From: an uncultured Cellvibrionales bacterium
GTDB lineage: Bacteria; Pseudomonadota; Gammaproteobacteria; Pseudomonadales; GM7GCV1
Assembly: GCA_937129725.1 (NCBI GenBank)
Contig: CAKZNR010000108.1
Coordinates: 1-34,485, forward strand
DNA length: 34,485 bases
Direction: 5' to 3'
In this document: piece by piece, positions 3,281 to 16,136 of the stretch
Layout of the letters: each line of letters opens with the position of its first letter
Numbering within the stretch: the stretch's first letter is position 1
The notes under the pieces: generated by a model
What the model was told of the DNA's origin: nothing
Seen by the model: only the letters and a program-made list of their open reading frames with translations
The model's database searches: none
Position numbers and translations under genes: made by a program

Positions 3281-3795
3281 GCAGTTATTTTCCCGAAAAT
3301 CTTCCTGACCCGAATGGCAACCCCGGCATCGATCTGCCAGCCCTGGCAACCAATAAGATTATTCGCATCAGCAGGCTGCTCGATCGACAGTTGGTTAAGC
3401 TGGCCCACGAATTGGGCATCAGCGTCTCCGACCTCCGGGTGATATTTCTGCTGGGAGAACGCCGCGATTGCACCCTCAAGGAAGTCATTGAAGGCACCGT
3501 GCTGGATCAGGGAAACACCAGTCGCGTAGTTGCCAAACTGGTTGAACAGGGCTTGCTGCAGCGTAGCGAGGACGAGGACGATGCGCGCAAAACCCTGCTT
3601 TCACTAACCGGCGAAGGCCTGAACGTGCTGCGCCGTGCAGCCCCCGAACGGCTCAAACTCGAAAACATGATTGTCGAGGAGTTCAGCGAGGAAGAACGCG
3701 CCCTGCTGAACGCGTTTCTTTCCCGAATCGACAGCCTGACCCAGTCCGAGGCTTTTGACCTCGAGGTAACCGGCGATACCCCGGCTCAGGGCTGA
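3277..3795 (+). CDS. MarR-family transcriptional regulator
   Basis: A 172-residue winged-helix DNA-binding protein. After ~35 residues of variable N-terminus comes an amphipathic dimerisation helix, then the helix-turn-helix around residues 55-85 and the wing with the typical Asp-x-Arg-Lys motif (EDEDDARKTLLSLTGEG, ~105-121), and a C-terminal dimerisation helix. MarR proteins usually repress nearby operons and release DNA on binding small aromatic or oxidised ligands. It is the last gene of the moaA unit (ATGA overlap with the preceding gene) and converges on the PQQ dehydrogenase gene with a 10-bp overlap of coding ends. Target and ligand are not visible. Confidence 0.9.
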   Translation: MSSYFPENLPDPNGNPGIDLPALATNKIIRISRLLDRQLVKLAHELGISVSDLRVIFLLGERRDCTLKEVIEGTVLDQGNTSRVVAKLVEQGLLQRSEDEDDARKTLLSLTGEGLNVLRRAAPERLKLENMIVEEFSEEERALLNAFLSRIDSLTQSEAFDLEVTGDTPAQG

Positions 3796-6101
3796 AGCTT
3801 AAGCGCCACCAGTTCGCCAGGGTGCCCCTGAGCACCCACCGGAACCAGAATGTACTGCTCCCCGTTCACTGCATATGACATGGGTAAGCCGGTTTGCCGG
3901 GCAGGCAGCTCGTATTCCCAAACAATCTCGCCAGTGGTTTTGTCGTGCGCCCGGAACATGGGACCTCCTCCAGACGCTACGTAAAGCCCCGATCCCTCGC
4001 CCGCAAACAACAGGGTTTTTGTCACCAGCAGACCCACCCGCTCGGCATGGCCGGTGCGCGGCAATTCCACGCCCTCGAGCATAGGGTGGTTGGCAATCTC
4101 TTCCGGCGTGTCGGCATTGGCCATGCGCCAGGCGTGCTGACCCGTATTCATGTCAATGGCCGTAATGGTACCGAAAGGCGGCTTTGTCAGGGGCAGGCCG
4201 AAAGGACCCGACAGCCGCGGGCCGCCTGCCACATAGTTCATGCTGGAACGGTCGCTTTGCACCAGCCCCACCGACCCCGGATAGTGCGACGAGGAAACGT
4301 AAAGCAAGCCGCTCTCCGGGTCGGCGACCGCACCTTGCCAGTTGGCGCCCCCGGTTGGGGCCGGCATCAGCAGGGTGCCGAAATTGTCTTCAGTTACCAG
4401 CGTGGGAGGCGTGTAGAGAGGGCCCATGGTGTAGTTGGACGCAATGCGTTTTGCTTCGGCCAGGATTTCCGGAGTGAGATCGTTGAGCAGAGACTCGTCC
4501 ATACCCTGGTGGGCAAATGGCACCGGCAGTGTGGGGAAAGGCTGAGTAGGCGCTGTCCACTCACCGGGGACGTCGGTTTGTGGTACCGGGCGATCCTCAA
4601 TGGGCCAAACCGGCTCGCCGTTGCGTCGATCAAAGGTATAAATAAACCCCTGTTTGGTAACTTGCGCAATGGCGGGAATATCGCGGCCATTTACCCTGAT
4701 GTCCAGAAGCACAGGCGGTGCGGGCGGATCGTAATCCCAAATGCCGTGTCGAATCGTTTGAAAATGCCATACACGTTCCCCGCTGGATGCGTCCAGTGCC
4801 ACCAAAGATTGGCTGAACAGGTTGTCGCCCGGCCGATGGCCACCGTAGTAGTCGCCAGTAGCCGCTTCAACAGGAACGTAGACCATGTTCAACTCGGGGT
4901 CGGCAGACAGGGGCGCCCATGCACCCACGTTGCCGCTGTAGTCGGCGGAACCCTGCAACCAGGTGTCGTAGCCGAATTCACCCGGCGCCGGCACGGTATG
5001 AAAGATCCAACGCCTCTCACCGGTTTTAAGGTCATAGGCAGCGATGTGCCCCTTAACCGTTTCGGGTGAAGAAGGCGCGCGGCCTGCAGGAAACGCGGGG
5101 CCAACAACCAACACATCGTTAACCACCACCGGAGGTGAGCTGTTGCCCACCGGGTCGTTAACCAGATCGACATCCTGGTCGAGATGAAGCTTCATATCCA
5201 CCGCGCCATAATTGCCAAAATTCGGCAGTCGCTCACCACTGGCGGCATCCAGGCCTACCAGGTTGAACCCCGGAGTAATGTAATAAATGCGCCCCTGGCC
5301 ATCGATCTCGGCGTAGGCCACACCGCGGCCTGACCCGCCGCGAGGCGCGTTTTCGCCGCGCTTGCCCTCATCCAGGCGATGCATCCACAGAGTTTCACCC
5401 GTGATTGCATCGATCGCTACAGCGGTACGACGATTGCCGGCGGTGGTATACAGCACACCGTTGGCCATGACGGGAGTGGCCTGGAAATTGAATTCGGGAG
5501 AGGGCCCAAAATTGTCACTCTTCCAGCGCCAGGCAATCTCGAGCTGGTCGACATTTTCCGCGTTAACCAGATCGAGGGGAGAGTAGTTCTGGCTACCTGC
5601 ATCTCCTCGCGGATGCAGCCATTCCTGATTAATTCCCTGCGGCTGATACACCTGGTTATCCAACTCGGCAAGCAACTGTTCGGCATCGCCCTGCGGCATT
5701 TCCAGGTTGACTGACAACAAACCCGTCAAACCACCGGAGAGTTCACTTTCACCTGCGCTGTAGCCGTTTGCCAGCAGCATGTAGGCAAGCACCTGATGGT
5801 ATTGCTGCTCACTCAACCCGTTTGGATTGACCATGGGCATGGTCATGCTGGTAATGGCATAGAGGTTGGCCAACGACTGGCCGGTCCATTTTTCCAGAAA
5901 GGTCGAACCAATCAATGCGCTGCCGCCCTCGCCGCCACCCAGGTTATTACCGTGACAGATGGCACACTCGCGCCGGTAGACAGATTCCCCGGCTACGGCC
6001 TGTTGCAGCGTGAAAAGCCCCTGTTCGGAACCCTGCTGGGCGTCCGCCACATTACTTATGCCAAGACCCAGAAAGAGCAGAAACAGACAGATTTTGTTCA
6101 T
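3786..6101 (-). CDS. PQQ-dependent dehydrogenase with N-terminal cytochrome c domain
   Basis: A periplasmic quinohaemoprotein of 771 residues. Residues 1-21 form a signal peptide. Residues ~34-115 are a cytochrome c domain with the haem site C46-x2-C49-H50 and a candidate axial Met in a Met-Pro-Met-Val-Asn-Pro loop. From ~160 to the end is a PQQ beta-propeller of the quinoprotein alcohol/glucose dehydrogenase family, with repeated Trp-docking segments and the opening WLHPRGDAGSQNYSPLDLVN typical of this branch. The family oxidises alcohols or sugars and passes electrons through its own haem. Alcohol dehydrogenases of this kind usually carry the cytochrome at the C-terminus, so the order here is reversed. 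Substrate unknown. No pqq synthesis genes are in the window. Confidence 0.9.
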   Translation of the reverse strand: MNKICLFLLFLGLGISNVADAQQGSEQGLFTLQQAVAGESVYRRECAICHGNNLGGGEGGSALIGSTFLEKWTGQSLANLYAITSMTMPMVNPNGLSEQQYHQVLAYMLLANGYSAGESELSGGLTGLLSVNLEMPQGDAEQLLAELDNQVYQPQGINQEWLHPRGDAGSQNYSPLDLVNAENVDQLEIAWRWKSDNFGPSPEFNFQATPVMANGVLYTTAGNRRTAVAIDAITGETLWMHRLDEGKRGENAPRGGSGRGVAYAEIDGQGRIYYITPGFNLVGLDAASGERLPNFGNYGAVDMKLHLDQDVDLVNDPVGNSSPPVVVNDVLVVGPAFPAGRAPSSPETVKGHIAAYDLKTGERRWIFHTVPAPGEFGYDTWLQGSADYSGNVGAWAPLSADPELNMVYVPVEAATGDYYGGHRPGDNLFSQSLVALDASSGERVWHFQTIRHGIWDYDPPAPPVLLDIRVNGRDIPAIAQVTKQGFIYTFDRRNGEPVWPIEDRPVPQTDVPGEWTAPTQPFPTLPVPFAHQGMDESLLNDLTPEILAEAKRIASNYTMGPLYTPPTLVTEDNFGTLLMPAPTGGANWQGAVADPESGLLYVSSSHYPGSVGLVQSDRSSMNYVAGGPRLSGPFGLPLTKPPFGTITAIDMNTGQHAWRMANADTPEEIANHPMLEGVELPRTGHAERVGLLVTKTLLFAGEGSGLYVASGGGPMFRAHDKTTGEIVWEYELPARQTGLPMSYAVNGEQYILVPVGAQGHPGELVALKLQP

Positions 6102-8882: not shown

Positions 8883-10655
8883 TTAATTTTGGTCGACTGC
8901 AATATCATCACAGCCGTCCCGGTTGCTCAGCCAACAGGCCTGATATGGCGCCAGCTGGAGCTGCCCTCCTCTCTCCTCAATCGCATTGCCACTAACCAGA
9001 TCAGCCCAATCGTCAATCGAAATCAGGTTGAGCTGCCCCAAAGGCAAAACAACATTCTTGTCGCTCACGTTGGCCAGGGCAAAAATGCTCTGGCGCCTGT
9101 CCAGAGACTGCCGCCACACACCAAATAACCCCGGACCCAATTGCAGCGTGTATTGAACCGCGCTGGGATGAAAGGCAGGCTGGCGCTTGCGGATACGGAT
9201 CAGGCGTGCAAGTGCTTCAAACAGGCGACTGTGCGGACTGGATGGGTCCGCCAGCTGCGTTTCCAGCTCGTGAGCGATCCAGTTGTGACGATTGATGGCA
9301 CGGCTCTGGCCAAGCCGATCGAGTTTTTCGTAGTCGTTGCGGGTTCCCAGCAGGCTGTGGATGTAGAAAGCCGGTATACCCTCAAGCGACAGCATAATGC
9401 TGTGCGCGCAAACCATTCGCTCGTGAGCCAGCTCGTCGGGGCCATCATGGGTACCGCCGAATGCATCGTAAAGACTGATATTCAACTCATAGGGTTTTAG
9501 CTGATGCTCGGAAAGTGCCCGCCAGGAGACCTTCCCGCCGAGCCTCTGCGCCGTTTGAACCAAAGCTTCCTGCGCCTCCTCGTCGAGCAACTCCTCCACC
9601 GGACGCATGCCGATACCGTCATGTGACGCGATAAAATTGAAATAGGTAGTGCCCATTTGTGCCGGCGGCAAACTCATAATCCAGCGATTCAGGGCCGCCG
9701 CATCGCCACTCCAGAGGGTATGCAACAGCAAGGGCGGCAGAGGAAAGTTGTATACCATGTGCGCTTCGTTGCCATTACCGAAGTAGGTGAGATTCTCCCG
9801 GTCGGGAATATTGGTCTCGGTAATCAACAACACCTCGCGGTCGTAATATTCCACCAGGGCGCGAATCAGGCGAACCATCTCGTGGGTTTGAGGCAGATTC
9901 AGGCAGGTTGTACCCACTTCTTTCCACAGGAAGGCAATCGCGTCGAGCCGGAATACTCGCACACCCTGGCTCAGATAATGGCGAATAATGCGTACAAAGG
10001 CGTACAACACCTCCAGATTGCCAAAATTCAAATCAATCTGGTCATGGCTGAAGGTACACCAGACAAACTCGACGCCCTCGGCGGTTTCTACCGGGTAAAG
10101 CAAATCACTTGCGCGTGGTCGAATGACATCGCTCAAGTCGGCCGCCGGACTGGCCGTGAAAAAATACCCACGTCCAGGTGACTCGCCCTTGATGAAATTT
10201 TCAAACCATTCGCTCTTGCGCGAACAATGGTTGATAACCAGGTCAGCCATGAGGCGGTATTCGGATGAAATAGCGCGAACATCATCCCAGTCGCCCAGTT
10301 GCGGATTCACCTGCTCGTAATCAATCACCGAGAAGCCATCGTCCGAGCTGAAAGGATAAAAAGGAAGAATGTGCACAATACTGACCAGATCGCTCAAGCG
10401 CTCGTCGAGAAATCGCTTCAAAGACACCAGCGGTTTTTCAGTTTCCTCAAATATCGAGTTGGCGTAGGTAATCAACACCAGGTCGGACTGATCCCAGGGG
10501 TCGTAATTTGGCGGTGGCATGCAGGCTTTCGCCGGATAACGCATTTCTTCCACCAGCCGGGTGGCAACTTCCCGACTGTCCTGCCCGGGATAGATCTGCT
10601 CAATATGGGTACGCAGCCTGCCAACCAGTTCAGCCAGGTCGGATTCGTCAAGCAT
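8883..10655 (-). CDS. ggaP: GH13_18 glucosylglycerate phosphorylase (sucrose phosphorylase-like)
   Basis: A ~590-residue alpha-amylase-fold phosphorylase resembling E. coli YcjM and sucrose phosphorylases. Early marks are VHILPFYPFSSDDGFSVIDY and LVINHCSRKSEWFENF. The catalytic Asp is in VFRLDAIAFLWKE, the acid/base Glu in LLITETNIP and the transition-state Asp in ASHDGIG. The LWKEVGTTCLNLP loop and a GSRNDY-like GTRNDY segment also match YcjM, which converts glucosylglycerate and phosphate to glucose-1-phosphate and glycerate. Neighbouring glucosylglycerate synthesis genes support this substrate over sucrose. I chose the ATG at 10655: GAGGA lies upstream and it overlaps the gpgS stop as ATGCTTGA. 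The alternative ATG at 10673 has no ribosome site. A sucrose or sucrose-6-phosphate phosphorylase remains possible. Confidence 0.85.
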   Translation of the reverse strand: MLDESDLAELVGRLRTHIEQIYPGQDSREVATRLVEEMRYPAKACMPPPNYDPWDQSDLVLITYANSIFEETEKPLVSLKRFLDERLSDLVSIVHILPFYPFSSDDGFSVIDYEQVNPQLGDWDDVRAISSEYRLMADLVINHCSRKSEWFENFIKGESPGRGYFFTASPAADLSDVIRPRASDLLYPVETAEGVEFVWCTFSHDQIDLNFGNLEVLYAFVRIIRHYLSQGVRVFRLDAIAFLWKEVGTTCLNLPQTHEMVRLIRALVEYYDREVLLITETNIPDRENLTYFGNGNEAHMVYNFPLPPLLLHTLWSGDAAALNRWIMSLPPAQMGTTYFNFIASHDGIGMRPVEELLDEEAQEALVQTAQRLGGKVSWRALSEHQLKPYELNISLYDAFGGTHDGPDELAHERMVCAHSIMLSLEGIPAFYIHSLLGTRNDYEKLDRLGQSRAINRHNWIAHELETQLADPSSPHSRLFEALARLIRIRKRQPAFHPSAVQYTLQLGPGLFGVWRQSLDRRQSIFALANVSDKNVVLPLGQLNLISIDDWADLVSGNAIEERGGQLQLAPYQACWLSNRDGCDDIAVDQN

Positions 10656-11871
10656 ACTGTGCGTGGTCCTCATCGGCGGCGATACGTAAATCGCCCAGAA
10701 TACCCGGCTCGGCGCTGATCACGCGGTTCCAGCTGGGCACAAAAGGGGTATCCATGGGGTTGTCCAGAAAATGGTTGCCTGCCGCCATGATGTTGCGCGC
10801 AAACATTTCCACCGAGGCTTCTTCTTCATGCACGTCAAACTCCAACCCGTTCATCAGAGCGTCGTTGCGGTAGGTTTCTACGAAGTCGAGCGCGATGCGG
10901 AAATAAGTGGCTTTCAGGGAGCGAATAATCTCGGGGGTAAAAACGGCCCCATTGGTTGCCAGTTTGCGAAAAATCGACTTACAGATATCGATCGACATTT
11001 TTGACAGGCCCTGGTCGGCACTTTCGGCTGACAGATCCTGATGCTTGTGGTCGTAGTTGTCAGCAATGTCTACCTGGCATATCCGGTTATTGGCGAAGTT
11101 GCGCTTGATCTCGAGCAAAAGGCCAACTTCAAGCCCCCAGTCGCTGGGAATGCGCATGTCCGTGACCACATCCCGGCGCATGGCGAACTCTCCGGCCAGT
11201 GGGTAGCGAAAACTGTCTAGGTAATCCAGCCACTCGGAATGGCCAATCACCTTTTTTAATGCCCTGATCAGAGGGGTTACCAGCAGGCGGGTAACCCGGC
11301 CACGAATCTTGTCACTGCCGATACGCGCGTAATAGCCCTTGGCGTATTCGTAGTTGAAGTTGGGATTGGCAATGGGGTAGAGCAATCGCGCCAGCAGGGA
11401 GCGGTCGTAGGTCACGATGTCGCAATCGTGCAGTCCTATTGCCTCGCCACGGCCTGAAGCCAACATGTAGCCCATGCAGTACCATACGTTACGCCCTTTG
11501 CCCAGCTCGGTAGGAGCCAGATTTTGCTGCTCGAGACGTTCGTGAATTGCCCGCATGCGCGGTCCATCATTCCACAACACACGCACGTTGGGTTGTGGAA
11601 GCGAGGCGAAAAACTCGCGTGCATGGCGGTATTCGGCCTCGTTGGCACGATCAAGGCCAATAATGATCTCGCTCAGGTAAGGCACCTGGCACAGTTCGGC
11701 AAGAATACTGTCCATCGCCGGCCCCTGTAATTCCGAATAGAGGCAGGGTAAAACCAGCGACATGGGACGAACCTGGGAGAAACTGATCAGTTCCCGCTCC
11801 ATTTCCTCCAAAGAGCGGGTGCGCAGGTTATGAAGGGTGGTCACAATGCCGTTCTGGTAAAAATCACCCAT
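10648..11871 (-). CDS. gpgS: Glucosyl-3-phosphoglycerate synthase (GT81)
   Basis: A 407-residue retaining glycosyltransferase of the GpgS/MpgS type, which transfers glucose from an NDP-sugar to 3-phosphoglycerate. The GT-A nucleotide-sugar region starts near residue 38 (LVLPCLYSE), with an acceptor/donor loop GKGRNVWYCMGYMLA (~124-138) and the metal-binding D-x-D at D149-D151 (LHDCDIVTYD). A conserved PLAGEFAMRRD and DWGLEVGLL block follows, then a helical C-terminal domain. GpgS and mannosyl-3-phosphoglycerate synthases are related, so sugar specificity is inferred from the adjacent glucosylglycerate phosphorylase. The phosphatase gene is 52 bp upstream and the phosphorylase start overlaps this stop, so synthesis and breakdown share one transcript. 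Confidence 0.88.
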   Translation of the reverse strand: MGDFYQNGIVTTLHNLRTRSLEEMERELISFSQVRPMSLVLPCLYSELQGPAMDSILAELCQVPYLSEIIIGLDRANEAEYRHAREFFASLPQPNVRVLWNDGPRMRAIHERLEQQNLAPTELGKGRNVWYCMGYMLASGRGEAIGLHDCDIVTYDRSLLARLLYPIANPNFNYEYAKGYYARIGSDKIRGRVTRLLVTPLIRALKKVIGHSEWLDYLDSFRYPLAGEFAMRRDVVTDMRIPSDWGLEVGLLLEIKRNFANNRICQVDIADNYDHKHQDLSAESADQGLSKMSIDICKSIFRKLATNGAVFTPEIIRSLKATYFRIALDFVETYRNDALMNGLEFDVHEEEASVEMFARNIMAAGNHFLDNPMDTPFVPSWNRVISAEPGILGDLRIAADEDHAQYA

Positions 11872-11923
11872 TGGGTACTCTCCTAAAAAAATATGGCTGC
11901 GACGAAATAGGTTTCACCACCAG

Positions 11924-12748
11924 CTAAAGGTCTCCCCGGTTTAACTCAGCAAGAATCGCGCCAGACCAACCGGCTGGTCCGTAATCATCGGTCAATCGGC
12001 TATTGGGGTTGGCGCAATGCGGTGGATTCAGGTGTTGCGAGCGCACCAGTATGGCGATATCGGCGGCGTCGAGCATGGCAATGTCATTTTCGCCGTCTCC
12101 TGCTGCGACTGAAAGCCAATTAGACTCGTCGAACCATCGCGCCATGCACCATTTTAGTGCGCCACCCTTATCACTTCTGCCCATCACATGTGCAAATCGG
12201 CCGCCTCGTTGCACCAATAGATCGCAGTTTTCCAGTTCTTGCCTGAACTGATCAAAAGCAGCATCACTGTCCTCCCAAACGCACGGTTCGGTGAAATTCC
12301 GCTGCATGCTGTTTTCGGCATCTGGCTCGGCGAGCCCGGTTCGCTGTGCAACCTCGGCAGCGCTCATCTGGCAGTAAGAGCGAAAGCGATAACGCCCACG
12401 CAGCGGCTCGAGCTGCTCCAGTATTCGCTCCCGCGGCGCCCCCAGAGCGTGTAACCGGTAGTTTTGTGGCCGGTAGTCACCGCAGTCTTGGTCGCCCGGC
12501 TGCCAACCTGCCGGTATGGCTACGCCCCCGCCATTTTCGCAGATCAATGGCGCACAGACGCCCGTTTCCCGGGCCAGCTGCAACATCTCCGCAAGGGTCT
12601 TGCTGCTGTTAAAAATACAGGGTGAGCCAATTCGCTTCAGCTCGTCCAAAGCCGGTTTGGCAGCAACCCAGGAATAGCTGTCGTGATCCAGAAGGGTGCC
12701 ATCGAGATCAGTGAATACAACCGGTTTTCGCAAGCCGGAATCAACCAT
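11924..12748 (-). CDS. gpgP: HAD-IIB glucosyl/mannosyl-3-phosphoglycerate phosphatase
   Basis: A 274-residue HAD phosphatase of the MPGP subfamily (as MpgP/GpgP, E. coli YedP), expected to remove the phosphate from glucosyl-3-phosphoglycerate. Motif I is DLDGT at residues 14-18, motif II is the Ser in FNSSKT, motif III the Lys in GRSDKGGALKW and motif IV GDGENDIAML. I set the start at ATG 12748, just before motif I, overlapping the glycerate kinase stop as ATGGTTGA; a longer in-frame version from 12874 would run 42 codons through the kinase gene in another frame and gives an unlikely Cys/Arg-rich leader. Position between kinase and synthase genes supports the role. Confidence 0.87.
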   Translation of the reverse strand: MVDSGLRKPVVFTDLDGTLLDHDSYSWVAAKPALDELKRIGSPCIFNSSKTLAEMLQLARETGVCAPLICENGGGVAIPAGWQPGDQDCGDYRPQNYRLHALGAPRERILEQLEPLRGRYRFRSYCQMSAAEVAQRTGLAEPDAENSMQRNFTEPCVWEDSDAAFDQFRQELENCDLLVQRGGRFAHVMGRSDKGGALKWCMARWFDESNWLSVAAGDGENDIAMLDAADIAILVRSQHLNPPHCANPNSRLTDDYGPAGWSGAILAELNRGDL

Positions 12749-13634
12749 GCCGGTGGTTCCGCACAATGCGTTGTGTCTGATCCAGTTCGAACACCCAGTC
12801 GGCTCGCTGCGGCATCTCTTGCAGCATCCAGCGCGTGAGGCGCTCGTAGTGCGAAATGAACCGTTGCATTGCATCGGCGTTGCTTAGTTCGGTAGGTGTG
12901 CCGGTTCGCTGAACCAACTTTTCTTCCTGCCGGCTGCGCCACTCGTATACCTGCTCAAAATTCGGCGCTTGCAGCATGACCAGGCAGTCCAGTCGCGACC
13001 AGAGCTTTAACTGGTATTCGATCAGGGACCGGTTAACAAACTTGCGCCAGGCACCATTGGCGTCTTCTTCTCGTTCCAGCGCATTAAGTGGCTCGTCGAG
13101 CGCCGAATCGGGTTGCTGCAAGCAGCCAACACACCAGCCTTCCAGTACCAACAGATCGATTGGCTTATCAACCCAGGGCCAGAGTTCCTTGTTCTGACGG
13201 TCATCCACACTTTTATCGAAGCATGGCACCTGCACAGAGGGCTCATCCTGGTTGAATAGCTGGTCAAAAAAGAGCTCTGCCAGATGCAAATCGTGAGTTC
13301 CCGGCACACCGCGGATCTTCAACAGGGGATGTATCTGCCCCGCCAAACGCTCTCGGCCCGCTTTGCTCAGGTACAGATCGTCCAGCGAGAGGCTGACGGC
13401 ATTCAGACCCGCCTGCTCGGCGACGCCCGTTACCAGGAAATCACCCAGAGTCGACTTGCCCGTGCCCTGGGCGCCATTGATGCCAACTATCAGAGTCTGT
13501 TGGCGATCTCCTTCCAAAAGGCAAAGTTGCTCCAGCAAAGGCTGGAAATAATCGCGCGCATCAAGGGCATAGGTTTCTGGCAACCGGTGCCTTTGGCAAA
13601 AAGACTCGACCCAGTCCGGCTTTTCGTTGTTCAT
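12741..13634 (-). CDS. D-glycerate 3-kinase-like P-loop kinase (GLYK/Tda10 family)
   Basis: A 297-residue P-loop kinase. The Walker A segment is at residues 51-62 (GINGAQGTGKST), followed by a SLDDLYLS block and RGVPGTHDL, all hallmarks of the plant GLYK/yeast Tda10 group, which is unrelated to the GarK/GlxK glycerate kinases. GLYK converts D-glycerate to 3-phosphoglycerate. That fits its place here: the phosphorylase would release glycerate and this kinase would return it to the acceptor used by GpgS. Its start overlaps the preceding dehydrogenase stop by 4 bp (ATGA) and its stop overlaps gpgP by 8 bp. The family also holds members of unproven substrate, so the activity is inferred partly from context. 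Confidence 0.85.
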   Translation of the reverse strand: MNNEKPDWVESFCQRHRLPETYALDARDYFQPLLEQLCLLEGDRQQTLIVGINGAQGTGKSTLGDFLVTGVAEQAGLNAVSLSLDDLYLSKAGRERLAGQIHPLLKIRGVPGTHDLHLAELFFDQLFNQDEPSVQVPCFDKSVDDRQNKELWPWVDKPIDLLVLEGWCVGCLQQPDSALDEPLNALEREEDANGAWRKFVNRSLIEYQLKLWSRLDCLVMLQAPNFEQVYEWRSRQEEKLVQRTGTPTELSNADAMQRFISHYERLTRWMLQEMPQRADWVFELDQTQRIVRNHRHG

Positions 13635-14584
13635 GAGGCTGCCCCGTCAATGCAACGCTGCAACCGGTCGATAAGGCGCATTGCTTCAAGGCATTGAGCA
13701 AAACAGGACTCGGGTTGGCGCTGCTGCACAATGGCATCGCGGAACTCTGCAAGGATATTGATAAAGGGGTCCAGGGGATTTTGCTGCATCAGGATGTTGC
13801 CCTGGTAGTCAACCAGTTTTGGCCCACCAACTTCCAGTGTGTTTTCAAGGCCAATCACCTTGCAGCTGGCCTGAATCGGCCCGTGATGATTGAAGGAGCA
13901 TACGCTCGAAACCAGGGCGCCATCTTTGCTTCTCATGCCGAGGGTCAGATCCATCGGAATGCCGAGCTCGGGATGTTCGGGGCCGGCCTGGGCCCATACC
14001 TCGAAAGAGTCACCGGGAAACAGAGTACAAATAAAATCGAGGAAATGGCAACCGTGATGCCACAGCATGTTATCGACCCAGGTTCGCGGCTGACCAAAAC
14101 GATTCAGGTTTTCCCGGCGAAAGAAGTAGGTTTGTGTCACCAGGTGCAGCGGCGTCAATTCGCCATCCATCACCTGGCGCTGTAACTCCTTCCAAACCGG
14201 CGCAAAACGCCGCGTATGCGCTACCATGGCGACCCTGTCGGTGTTCCTTGCGATGTTGGTCAACTCCTCACTGTGCTGCAGCGATAGCGCCATGGGAATT
14301 TCCAGCAGTAAGTGCTTGCCGGCCTTTAGCACCTGCTCGGCCTGCTGACGGTGCAGCCGGCTGGGACTGCCCAAAATAACCGCATCTACCCCCTCGTCGA
14401 GTGCCAGCTGCAGGTCGGTACCCTGCCGGGGTATCTGCCATTTTTCGGCAAACCCAGCCACATCCTCGGCAACCCCGCCTACCAGCGCAACCACCTGCAT
14501 ACCGTCCACAGACTGCAATGCCTCCATGTAGGTAGCCCCCTGGGCGCCCTCTCCCACCAGGCAAATATTCAACATTGATGACAA
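13631..14584 (-). CDS. Gfo/Idh/MocA-family dehydrogenase, LigC-like
   Basis: A 317-residue NAD(P)-dependent oxidoreductase with an N-terminal Rossmann fold (GEGAQG at residues 11-16) and a C-terminal alpha/beta domain. The usual Glu-Lys-Pro catalytic motif is EIP at 95-97, and the second motif is LWHHGCH at 174-180. From memory, both changes, plus the HTRRF and QTYFFRREN blocks, match LigC (4-carboxy-2-hydroxymuconate-6-semialdehyde dehydrogenase of the protocatechuate 4,5-cleavage pathway), which oxidises a cyclic hemiacetal. No other aromatic-degradation genes are in the window, and the gene leads the glucosylglycerate unit (ATGA overlap with the kinase), so its real substrate may be a sugar or glycerate-derived aldehyde. 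It diverges from pyruvate kinase across 118 bp. Confidence 0.85.
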   Translation of the reverse strand: MSSMLNICLVGEGAQGATYMEALQSVDGMQVVALVGGVAEDVAGFAEKWQIPRQGTDLQLALDEGVDAVILGSPSRLHRQQAEQVLKAGKHLLLEIPMALSLQHSEELTNIARNTDRVAMVAHTRRFAPVWKELQRQVMDGELTPLHLVTQTYFFRRENLNRFGQPRTWVDNMLWHHGCHFLDFICTLFPGDSFEVWAQAGPEHPELGIPMDLTLGMRSKDGALVSSVCSFNHHGPIQASCKVIGLENTLEVGGPKLVDYQGNILMQQNPLDPFINILAEFRDAIVQQRQPESCFAQCLEAMRLIDRLQRCIDGAAS

Positions 14585-14600
14585 CCCTTACTCGAAAAAA

Positions 14601-14615
14601 TGTAATTCAGTTTCA
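14601..14615. promoter_or_regulatory. Possible HexR-type operator in the pyk/LigC-like intergenic region
   Basis: The sequence TGTAATTCAGTTTCA matches 12 of 15 positions of the HexR palindrome as I recall it (TGTAATTAAATTACA). HexR (RpiR family) controls central carbon genes, often including pyruvate kinase, in gammaproteobacteria. The site is 17 bp upstream of the LigC-like start and 87 bp upstream of pyk, so it could affect either direction. The right half is imperfect and no HexR gene is in view. Confidence 0.35.
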
Positions 14616-14656
14616 TTTATTTAGGGCTGAACCCCGTATTTCTGTAATCAAGAGAC

Positions 14657-14672
14657 TATACTGTCGCACAGT
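14657..14672 (+). promoter_or_regulatory. Putative pyk -10 box overlapping a small inverted repeat
   Basis: TATACT at 14657-14662 is a good sigma70 -10 hexamer 40 bp upstream of the pyk start, but no good -35 box is seen 16-18 bp further up. The last bases join a perfect inverted repeat, ACTGT-CGC-ACAGT (14660-14672), placed where a repressor would block initiation. Activator dependence or an operator role is inference. Confidence 0.3.
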
Positions 14673-14702
14673 AAGCCAAGCTGCAAAGCCCAATCGGACA
14701 TT

Positions 14703-16136
14703 ATGACAAAACGCACCAAAATTATTGCCACCCTCGGCCCCGCCAGCTCCACTGAAGAGGCCATCGAGCGCCTGATTCTTGCCGGCACGGATGTGTTTCG
14801 CCTGAACTTTTCCCACGGAACCCAGCAAGAACAGGTTGCACGGGCGGAACTGGTTCGCCGTATCGCAGCGCGGCATAACAGGTATGTTGCCCTTCTGGGT
14901 GATTTGCAGGGCCCAAAAATTCGCATTCAGGAATTTGCTTCGGGGTTTGTGCAGCTCGAACCCGGACAGGACTTTTGCCTCGATACCCAGCTTGCCGCCG
15001 ACGCGGGCGACTCAAGCCAAGTGGGCGTGCTTTACCGCGATCTGCCCAAGGATTGCGAGCCGGGCAGCCTGTTGCTGCTTGATGATGGCCGCCTTGAGAT
15101 GGAAGTTCAGTCCGTCGACGGCAATCGCATTAACTGCCGGGTTGTCACCGGCGGCAAACTGTCCAATAACAAGGGCATCAACCTGGCTGGTGGAGGGTTG
15201 TCTGCGCCCGCGCTGACAGAAAAAGACCGATCCGACCTGACTTGCGCCGCCCAGGCACAGCTGGACTACCTGGCAATTTCCTTTCCAAAGTCGGCCGACG
15301 ATATGCGTGAGGCACGAGAACAGGCCATTGCTGCCGGCTTTGCGGGGCGTCTGATCGCCAAAATTGAACGCTCTGAGTCAGTTGCCTCGGAAGAAGCCAT
15401 GGATGCGATTATTCTGGCATCGGATGCAGTAATGGTTGCGCGCGGTGACCTGGGTGTGGAAATTGGCGATGCACAACTGGTTGGCATCCAGAAACGCCTC
15501 ATTCTCAGAGCCCGGCAACTGAATCGCATTGTAATTGTGGCTACCCAAATGATGGAATCCATGATTGAGAGTGCATTGCCAACGCGAGCTGAAGTATTTG
15601 ATGTGGCCAACGCTGTGCTGGATGGCACCGATGCCGTCATGCTCTCGGCAGAAACTGCCGTGGGCGCGCACCCCCACAAGGTGGTAGACGCCATGGCGCG
15701 GGTGATTCGCGGCGCCGAACGTGAACGCATTACCCAACAATCACAACACCGGCTTGACCGGGTGTTCGATAGCGCCGACGAGACCATTGCCATGGCTGCC
15801 ATGTACGCAGCCAACCACATGAAAGATATCAAGGCGCTGGTGAGTTTGACCGAGAGCGGTACCACCCCCTTGCTGATGTCCCGAATTCGGTCGGGGCTAC
15901 CTATCTTCGCTTTGTCGACGCAGCAAAGCACGCTGCGCCGCTGCGCCCTGCTAAGGGGTGTTCAGCCGGTCGAATTTGAAGGTTGCGATACCATGGCCGA
16001 TACCATCAGGCTCGCTTTTTCACAGCTTTGCGAGAAGGGTCACCTGCAGCCCGGTGACCGGGTCATTGTCACTATTGGTGATCAGATCGGAGAGAGCGGC
16101 CGCACCAATACACTGAAAATACTGACGATTGGCTAA
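14703..16136 (+). CDS. pyk: Pyruvate kinase
   Basis: Transfers phosphate from phosphoenolpyruvate to ADP; last glycolytic step, cytoplasmic tetramer. The 477-residue length suits bacterial PykA-type enzymes without the extra C-terminal domain. Seen in order: TKIIATLGPASS at the start, RLNFSHG (~residue 33), the B-domain from ~70 to 170, the active-site Lys in LIAKIERSES (~residue 221), VMVARGDLGVE, and TQMMESMI, then a C-terminal regulatory domain. It diverges from the glucosylglycerate unit, which draws 3-phosphoglycerate from the same pathway. Its stop overlaps that of the convergent nuclease gene in CTAA. Confidence 0.97.
   Translation: MTKRTKIIATLGPASSTEEAIERLILAGTDVFRLNFSHGTQQEQVARAELVRRIAARHNRYVALLGDLQGPKIRIQEFASGFVQLEPGQDFCLDTQLAADAGDSSQVGVLYRDLPKDCEPGSLLLLDDGRLEMEVQSVDGNRINCRVVTGGKLSNNKGINLAGGGLSAPALTEKDRSDLTCAAQAQLDYLAISFPKSADDMREAREQAIAAGFAGRLIAKIERSESVASEEAMDAIILASDAVMVARGDLGVEIGDAQLVGIQKRLILRARQLNRIVIVATQMMESMIESALPTRAEVFDVANAVLDGTDAVMLSAETAVGAHPHKVVDAMARVIRGAERERITQQSQHRLDRVFDSADETIAMAAMYAANHMKDIKALVSLTESGTTPLLMSRIRSGLPIFALSTQQSTLRRCALLRGVQPVEFEGCDTMADTIRLAFSQLCEKGHLQPGDRVIVTIGDQIGESGRTNTLKILTIG

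Follow-up and report, generated by a model that had tools for sequence, protein, structure and literature searches.

Four adjoining genes in the window, by which we mean the whole stretch of 34,485 nucleotides analysed here from the draft genome of an uncultured Cellvibrionales bacterium, very probably encode both the synthesis and the salvage of 2-O-alpha-D-glucosylglycerate, as judged from family matches, signature residues and gene order. Glucosylglycerate serves as a carbon store and as a protective solute free of nitrogen; in many producers its sink is known only from the genes that keep company with the phosphorylase. Relatives often carry this gene set, and its parts, their company and the core idea are already known. 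As far as we checked, two things are added to this picture: the pattern in which the glycerate kinase is displaced by other families, and the repeated fusion of this kinase to the phosphatase.

Gene layout and enzyme assignments

The initial annotation had described five overlapping or closely spaced genes, and this was borne out: five co-directed open frames lie on the minus strand (14584-8883), and their ends, read from the sequence, overlap or nearly touch. The features are as follows:

14703-16136, plus strand: pyruvate kinase gene (pyk), divergent from the operon; same position in both congeners
14585..14702, no strand: intergenic region separating the operon from the divergent pyk; the operon promoter is expected here
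13631..14575, minus strand: Gfo/Idh/MocA oxidoreductase (PmdC/LigC-like), first gene; the frame opens at 14584, the ATG at 14575 is the more likely start
12741..13634, minus strand: GLYK-type D-glycerate kinase, predicted to form 3-phosphoglycerate (matches to solved relatives, motifs)
11924..12748, minus strand: HAD-IIB phosphatase of the MPGP/GpgP family, predicted glucosyl-3-phosphoglycerate phosphatase (TIGR01486, HAD motifs)
10648..11871, minus strand: GpgS-type glucosyl-3-phosphoglycerate synthase (full-length match to NF040724)
8883..10673, minus strand: GH13_18 phosphorylase, predicted glucosylglycerate phosphorylase (GGaP); alternative ATG at 10655
9810..9821, minus strand: TETN motif, phosphorylase residues 285-288, a mark of glucosylglycerate phosphorylases (alignment; PMC7178133)
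9486..9488, minus strand: codon of Glu396, the loop A glutamate of the phosphorylase, Gln in sucrose phosphorylases (alignment; PMC7178133)

The oxidoreductase and kinase genes overlap by 4 nt (ATGA), and the kinase and phosphatase genes by 8 nt (ATGGTTGA). Although the open frame of the phosphatase reaches back to 12874, its true ATG was placed at 12748, the most likely position, because of the family match and the overlap with the kinase. A gap of 52 nt, with AGGAG ahead of the synthase start, separates phosphatase and synthase; the synthase and phosphorylase genes overlap by 26 or 8 nt, depending on the phosphorylase start that is chosen. A promoter scan found no consensus promoter, including in 14585..14702, a terminator scan predicted terminators at no more than chance level, and no regulator gene lies within the operon. 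The synthesis and salvage genes may be carried on a single transcript, with which the oxidoreductase gene is probably cotranscribed. The window also contains a PQQ-type beta-propeller dehydrogenase with an N-terminal cytochrome c domain (3786-6101, minus strand).

The synthase matched NF040724 (GpgS_Meth) over its full length (residues 3-405), with a score of 369 bits that is under the strict equivalog cut-off of 700 bits. The name of this model points to methanogen-type sequences, and the low score likely weakens the exact name and not the likely reaction. No mannosyl-3-phosphoglycerate synthase (MpgS) model matched the synthase at 1e-3, and its H148-D149-x-D151 motif is invariant across 16 relatives. 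The phosphatase scored 195.7 bits against TIGR01486, above the cut-off of 164.75, and has intact HAD motifs (TDLDGTL, NSSKT and GDGEND); its solved relatives are 1xvi, 1wzc and 3ztw, and its family (MPGP) also contains mannosyl-specific members. The kinase was matched by phmmer to the solved D-glycerate 3-kinases 6ckg (1e-19) and 7xpc (5e-16), and also to 1odf. Its motifs include a Walker A sequence GAQGTGKS with the P-loop intact, SLDDLY and EGW, and its product would be 3- rather than 2-phosphoglycerate.

The phosphorylase (596 residues) matches PF00128 and, below cut-off, TIGR03852. Its best NCBIfam model is that of sucrose phosphorylase, at 206 bits against a cut-off of 334, and E. coli YcjM, which is annotated as a glucosylglycerate phosphorylase, is likewise below the cut-off of this model (221 bits). 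The window protein shares 38% identity with YcjM and 42% with a homologue from Meiothermus taiwanensis. An alignment that included YcjM and two sucrose phosphorylases showed its GH13 nucleophile Asp, acid/base Glu and stabilising Asp to be intact (D243, E286 and D352). Franceus and Desmet 2020 (PMC7178133) give two marks that separate GGaP from sucrose phosphorylase, namely (T/S)ETN at the end of strand 5 and Glu for Gln in loop A. Both are present here (TETN at 285-288, and Glu396 within PYELN), as they are in YcjM and in 105/105 GGaP-type rows of the alignment, whereas the two sucrose phosphorylases have VEIH or PEIH at the motif site and Gln (YQ) in loop A. As both signature positions differ and the identity to these two enzymes is about 30%, a sucrose phosphorylase was ruled out, and the protein is predicted to act on glucosylglycerate (EC 2.4.1.352). 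The four enzymes named in the initial annotation (GpgS-type, GpgP-type, YcjM-like GH13_18 and GLYK-type) are supported by these family matches and signature residues, and by the conserved gene order described below.

Conservation of the cluster and the gene at its head

A scan with a GpgS alignment, limited to one genome per species, yielded 80 loci from named genomes, mostly of marine Gammaproteobacteria. Phosphatase, synthase and phosphorylase genes are found together in all of them (80/80), and GLYK lies directly upstream of the three in 51/80, being absent from the cluster in the other 29/80. With an order that recurs in 80/80 loci, and in 51/80 with the kinase, a chance neighbourhood was ruled out. 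In the two congeners of the window's species, kinase, phosphatase, synthase and phosphorylase are again accompanied by the divergent pyk, without the oxidoreductase. When neighbouring frames were clustered, no further widely conserved gene family emerged from the loci, nor did this clustering yield another conserved kinase where the clusters lack GLYK. In these cases other kinases sit elsewhere in the genome, with one exception (G451, see below). Because the kinase is outside the cluster in 29/80 loci, closure of the cycle within one operon appears to be optional.

The first gene, which the initial annotation had counted among the five but left unnamed, is outside this conserved set. Its product matches PF19858 and PF01408, and its closest solved relative is PmdC (9azo, E=7e-55, residues 1-309, full length). 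Nothing matching it was found in the 80 named loci, and in the two congeners it has no match in the stretch from pyk to the kinase gene; a paralogue is present elsewhere in the genome of the window's species (G000:C97). On these grounds the oxidoreductase was rejected as a core member, and the comparison points to an insertion peculiar to the window's species. Of the five-gene order that the initial annotation had proposed to look for in other genomes, the four-gene part recurs in the 51 loci mentioned above, but the oxidoreductase-headed five were seen in 0/80 and in neither congener. It could still be argued that the oxidoreductase takes part as a functional fifth enzyme, opening an exit from the loop by oxidising glycerate or the glucosyl group: its gene overlaps the kinase start, sugars are oxidised by Gfo/Idh/MocA enzymes, and the E. 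coli ycjM cluster includes a D-glucoside 3-dehydrogenase gene. However, with a nearest solved relative that belongs to an aromatic ring-cleavage pathway, with the paralogue, and with its absence from the cluster in both congeners and in all 80 named loci, we consider such a role unlikely.

Two loci have neighbours that deserve mention. In the Qingshengfaniella alkalisoli plasmid (L163), galU directly adjoins the phosphatase and synthase genes, and thus points to UDP-glucose as the donor. A galU gene (TIGR01099) was not found in the draft genome of the window's species, but is present in both congeners; the missing gene is probably an assembly gap. A conjugative plasmid of Leisingera methylohalidivorans (L162) carries the glucosylglycerate genes with a urease operon as their immediate neighbour, which is possibly a link to nitrogen.

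The proposed cycle and its glycerate kinase

In the proposed cycle, GpgS would transfer glucose from a nucleotide sugar onto 3-phosphoglycerate, and the HAD phosphatase would remove the phosphate, so that glucosylglycerate could build up as a nitrogen-free compatible solute. When demand for it ends, its phosphorolysis by the GH13_18 enzyme would yield alpha-glucose 1-phosphate and D-glycerate, the latter being returned to 3-phosphoglycerate by the kinase. We infer these reactions from the gene content, as well as which way the flux runs in the cell and how it is controlled. By our own derivation, one full turn with UDP-glucose amounts to UTP + ATP + H2O -> UDP + ADP + PPi, a cost of one UTP and one ATP. 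Running both arms at once would be a waste, which leads us to expect control at the protein level. A role as a buffered reserve, as the initial annotation had suggested, may be envisaged, but it would need regulation, given the UTP and ATP spent in each full turn. A role as reserve or osmolyte when nitrogen is limiting would fit what is known of glucosylglycerate elsewhere.

The link through glycerate was examined in 195 genomes sampled from the order, 99 with the phosphorylase and 96 without, in all of which three glycerate kinase families were sought (GLYK, the GarK/GlxK family PF02595 and the MOFRL family PF05161). A recognisable glycerate kinase was found in 98/99 genomes that carry the phosphorylase vs 58/96 that do not; the sampled genomes are related and not independent, and Fisher test values on these counts are indicative only. 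In 56 genomes GLYK lies <=9 kb from the phosphorylase, and 54 of these 56 have neither of the other kinase families. This also holds for the genome of the window's species, where neither a PF02595 nor a MOFRL glycerate kinase was found and GLYK is the only recognisable one. Conversely, 23 of the 24 phosphorylase-bearing genomes without GLYK carry PF02595 or MOFRL instead. These 23 span nine families, including some in which other members retain GLYK. In the sole genome without any of the three kinases (G428), the phosphorylase gene lies on a contig of 3799 bases with its start at base 3, so that the contig ends where the upstream genes would be.

If the cell has to rescue the glycerate that is freed by the phosphorylase, such a swap between unrelated families is to be expected. 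The near-universal presence of a glycerate kinase together with the phosphorylase supports closure via glycerate, and the interchange of three unrelated kinase families across a large order lends independent support to phosphorolysis followed by glycerate rescue. The closed loop proposed in the initial annotation is likewise favoured by the family matches, signature residues and conserved order, along with this near-obligatory kinase. The PF02595 and MOFRL enzymes known so far mostly form 2-phosphoglycerate. The exact return to 3-phosphoglycerate is thus probably not required in all lineages.

The cluster might instead serve mainly for synthesis, with the kinase making 3-phosphoglycerate from glycerate of other origin and the phosphorylase running in reverse, from glucose 1-phosphate and glycerate, as a second route rather than a sink. 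Phosphorolysis by GH13_18 enzymes is indeed reversible, the Km of GGaP for D-glycerate is low (PMC11009771), and the synthesis genes always adjoin the phosphorylase in the loci fetched with the synthase. However, some loci have the phosphorylase but no synthesis genes (the E. coli ycjM cluster, Meiothermus taiwanensis and G451); its neighbours there are transporters or a glycerate kinase, as fits breakdown. In G451 (L179:418-3266, minus strand), a GarK-type kinase of PF02595 overlaps the phosphorylase start in the place of GLYK, with no synthesis genes nearby, and we regard this locus as a putative salvage-only version. A kinase would moreover be redundant for synthesis wherever the cell has glycolysis. 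We therefore consider a mainly synthetic cluster quite improbable, and retain the reading of synthesis plus salvage. It is highly improbable that the product, as a substrate of phosphorylase or phosphatase, is another glycerate glycoside such as mannosylglycerate or a longer oligosaccharide: although the phosphatase family is named for mannosyl-3-phosphoglycerate and mannosylglucosylglycerate is known in other bacteria (PMC3694870), the synthase fits GpgS models and no mannosyl synthase model, the phosphorylase bears the glucosylglycerate marks, and the cluster has no additional conserved family.

Gene company of this kind is known from other systems. In the available part of Franceus and Desmet 2020 (PMC7178133), genes for glycerate kinase, GpgS or GpgP are said to occur often with those for GGaP. 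The neighbourhoods reported there and by Franceus et al. 2017 have the same gene company and the same proposed role as a glucosylglycerate sink, but the four-gene overlapping cluster, the kinase family and fusions are not described in that part of PMC7178133. A 2024 survey (PMC10873239), in the part available, lists GpgS, GpgP and GGaP in the same genome for 198/250 Marinobacter isolates, and GpgS/GpgP/GGAP have adjacent locus numbers (A2021-A2023) in Synechococcus sp. PCC 7002; unlike here, a glycerate kinase is not discussed in that part. Mycobacteria also store glucosylglycerate, which accumulates under nitrogen starvation and is later consumed, but they break it down by hydrolysis with GgH, in which the glucose-phosphate bond is not saved, whereas phosphorolysis saves one phosphate bond (PMC6608630). 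The E. coli ycjM cluster shares the phosphorylase with the window, but the genes beside it are those of an ABC transporter and of kojibiose, and GpgS, GpgP and GLYK are missing.

Fusion of kinase and phosphatase

In 10 loci a single open frame, about 576 to 658 residues long, covers both GLYK and the phosphatase. These loci belong to Methylophaga, an Oleiphilaceae, Glaciecola HTCC2999, two Pseudoalteromonas, a Piscirickettsiaceae, one of the congeners (G002) and three others of the order. Examples, to which seven more loci can be added, are:

L142:5021-6820, minus strand: fused GLYK-phosphatase
L138:8266-10008: fused GLYK-phosphatase
L161:5018-6760: fused GLYK-phosphatase

Family scans detect both domains in the fused proteins, and nearly all of these retain the P-loop and HAD motif I. 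On a synthase tree built with a quick method, the fused state needs eight changes, of which at least six are forced by well supported branches. This would correspond to at least six separate fusion events, one of them within the window's own genus. No fusion was found at the other two junctions, among 102 and 92 adjacent pairs. We found no published account of a glycerate kinase-phosphatase fusion in open-literature titles and abstracts.

The glucosylglycerol system of Marinobacter (PMC10873239) likewise pairs a synthesis enzyme with a GH13_18 phosphorylase, in that GGPPS adjoins GGP. There, however, the acceptor is glycerol and it is the synthase that is fused to the phosphatase, while here the phosphatase fuses to the kinase.

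Because exactly these two genes fuse repeatedly, and once in the window's genus, GLYK and the phosphatase may be one physical unit, either fused or bound. The salvage kinase and the synthesis phosphatase could then control each other, e.g. via 3-phosphoglycerate or glycerate, and the glucosylglycerate pool would be set as by a two-way valve. We put this forward tentatively, as an idea that is more doubtful than probable. The fusion provides a concrete protein with which the control of both directions can be probed; one such protein is labelled by NCBI only as 'HAD-IIB family hydrolase'.
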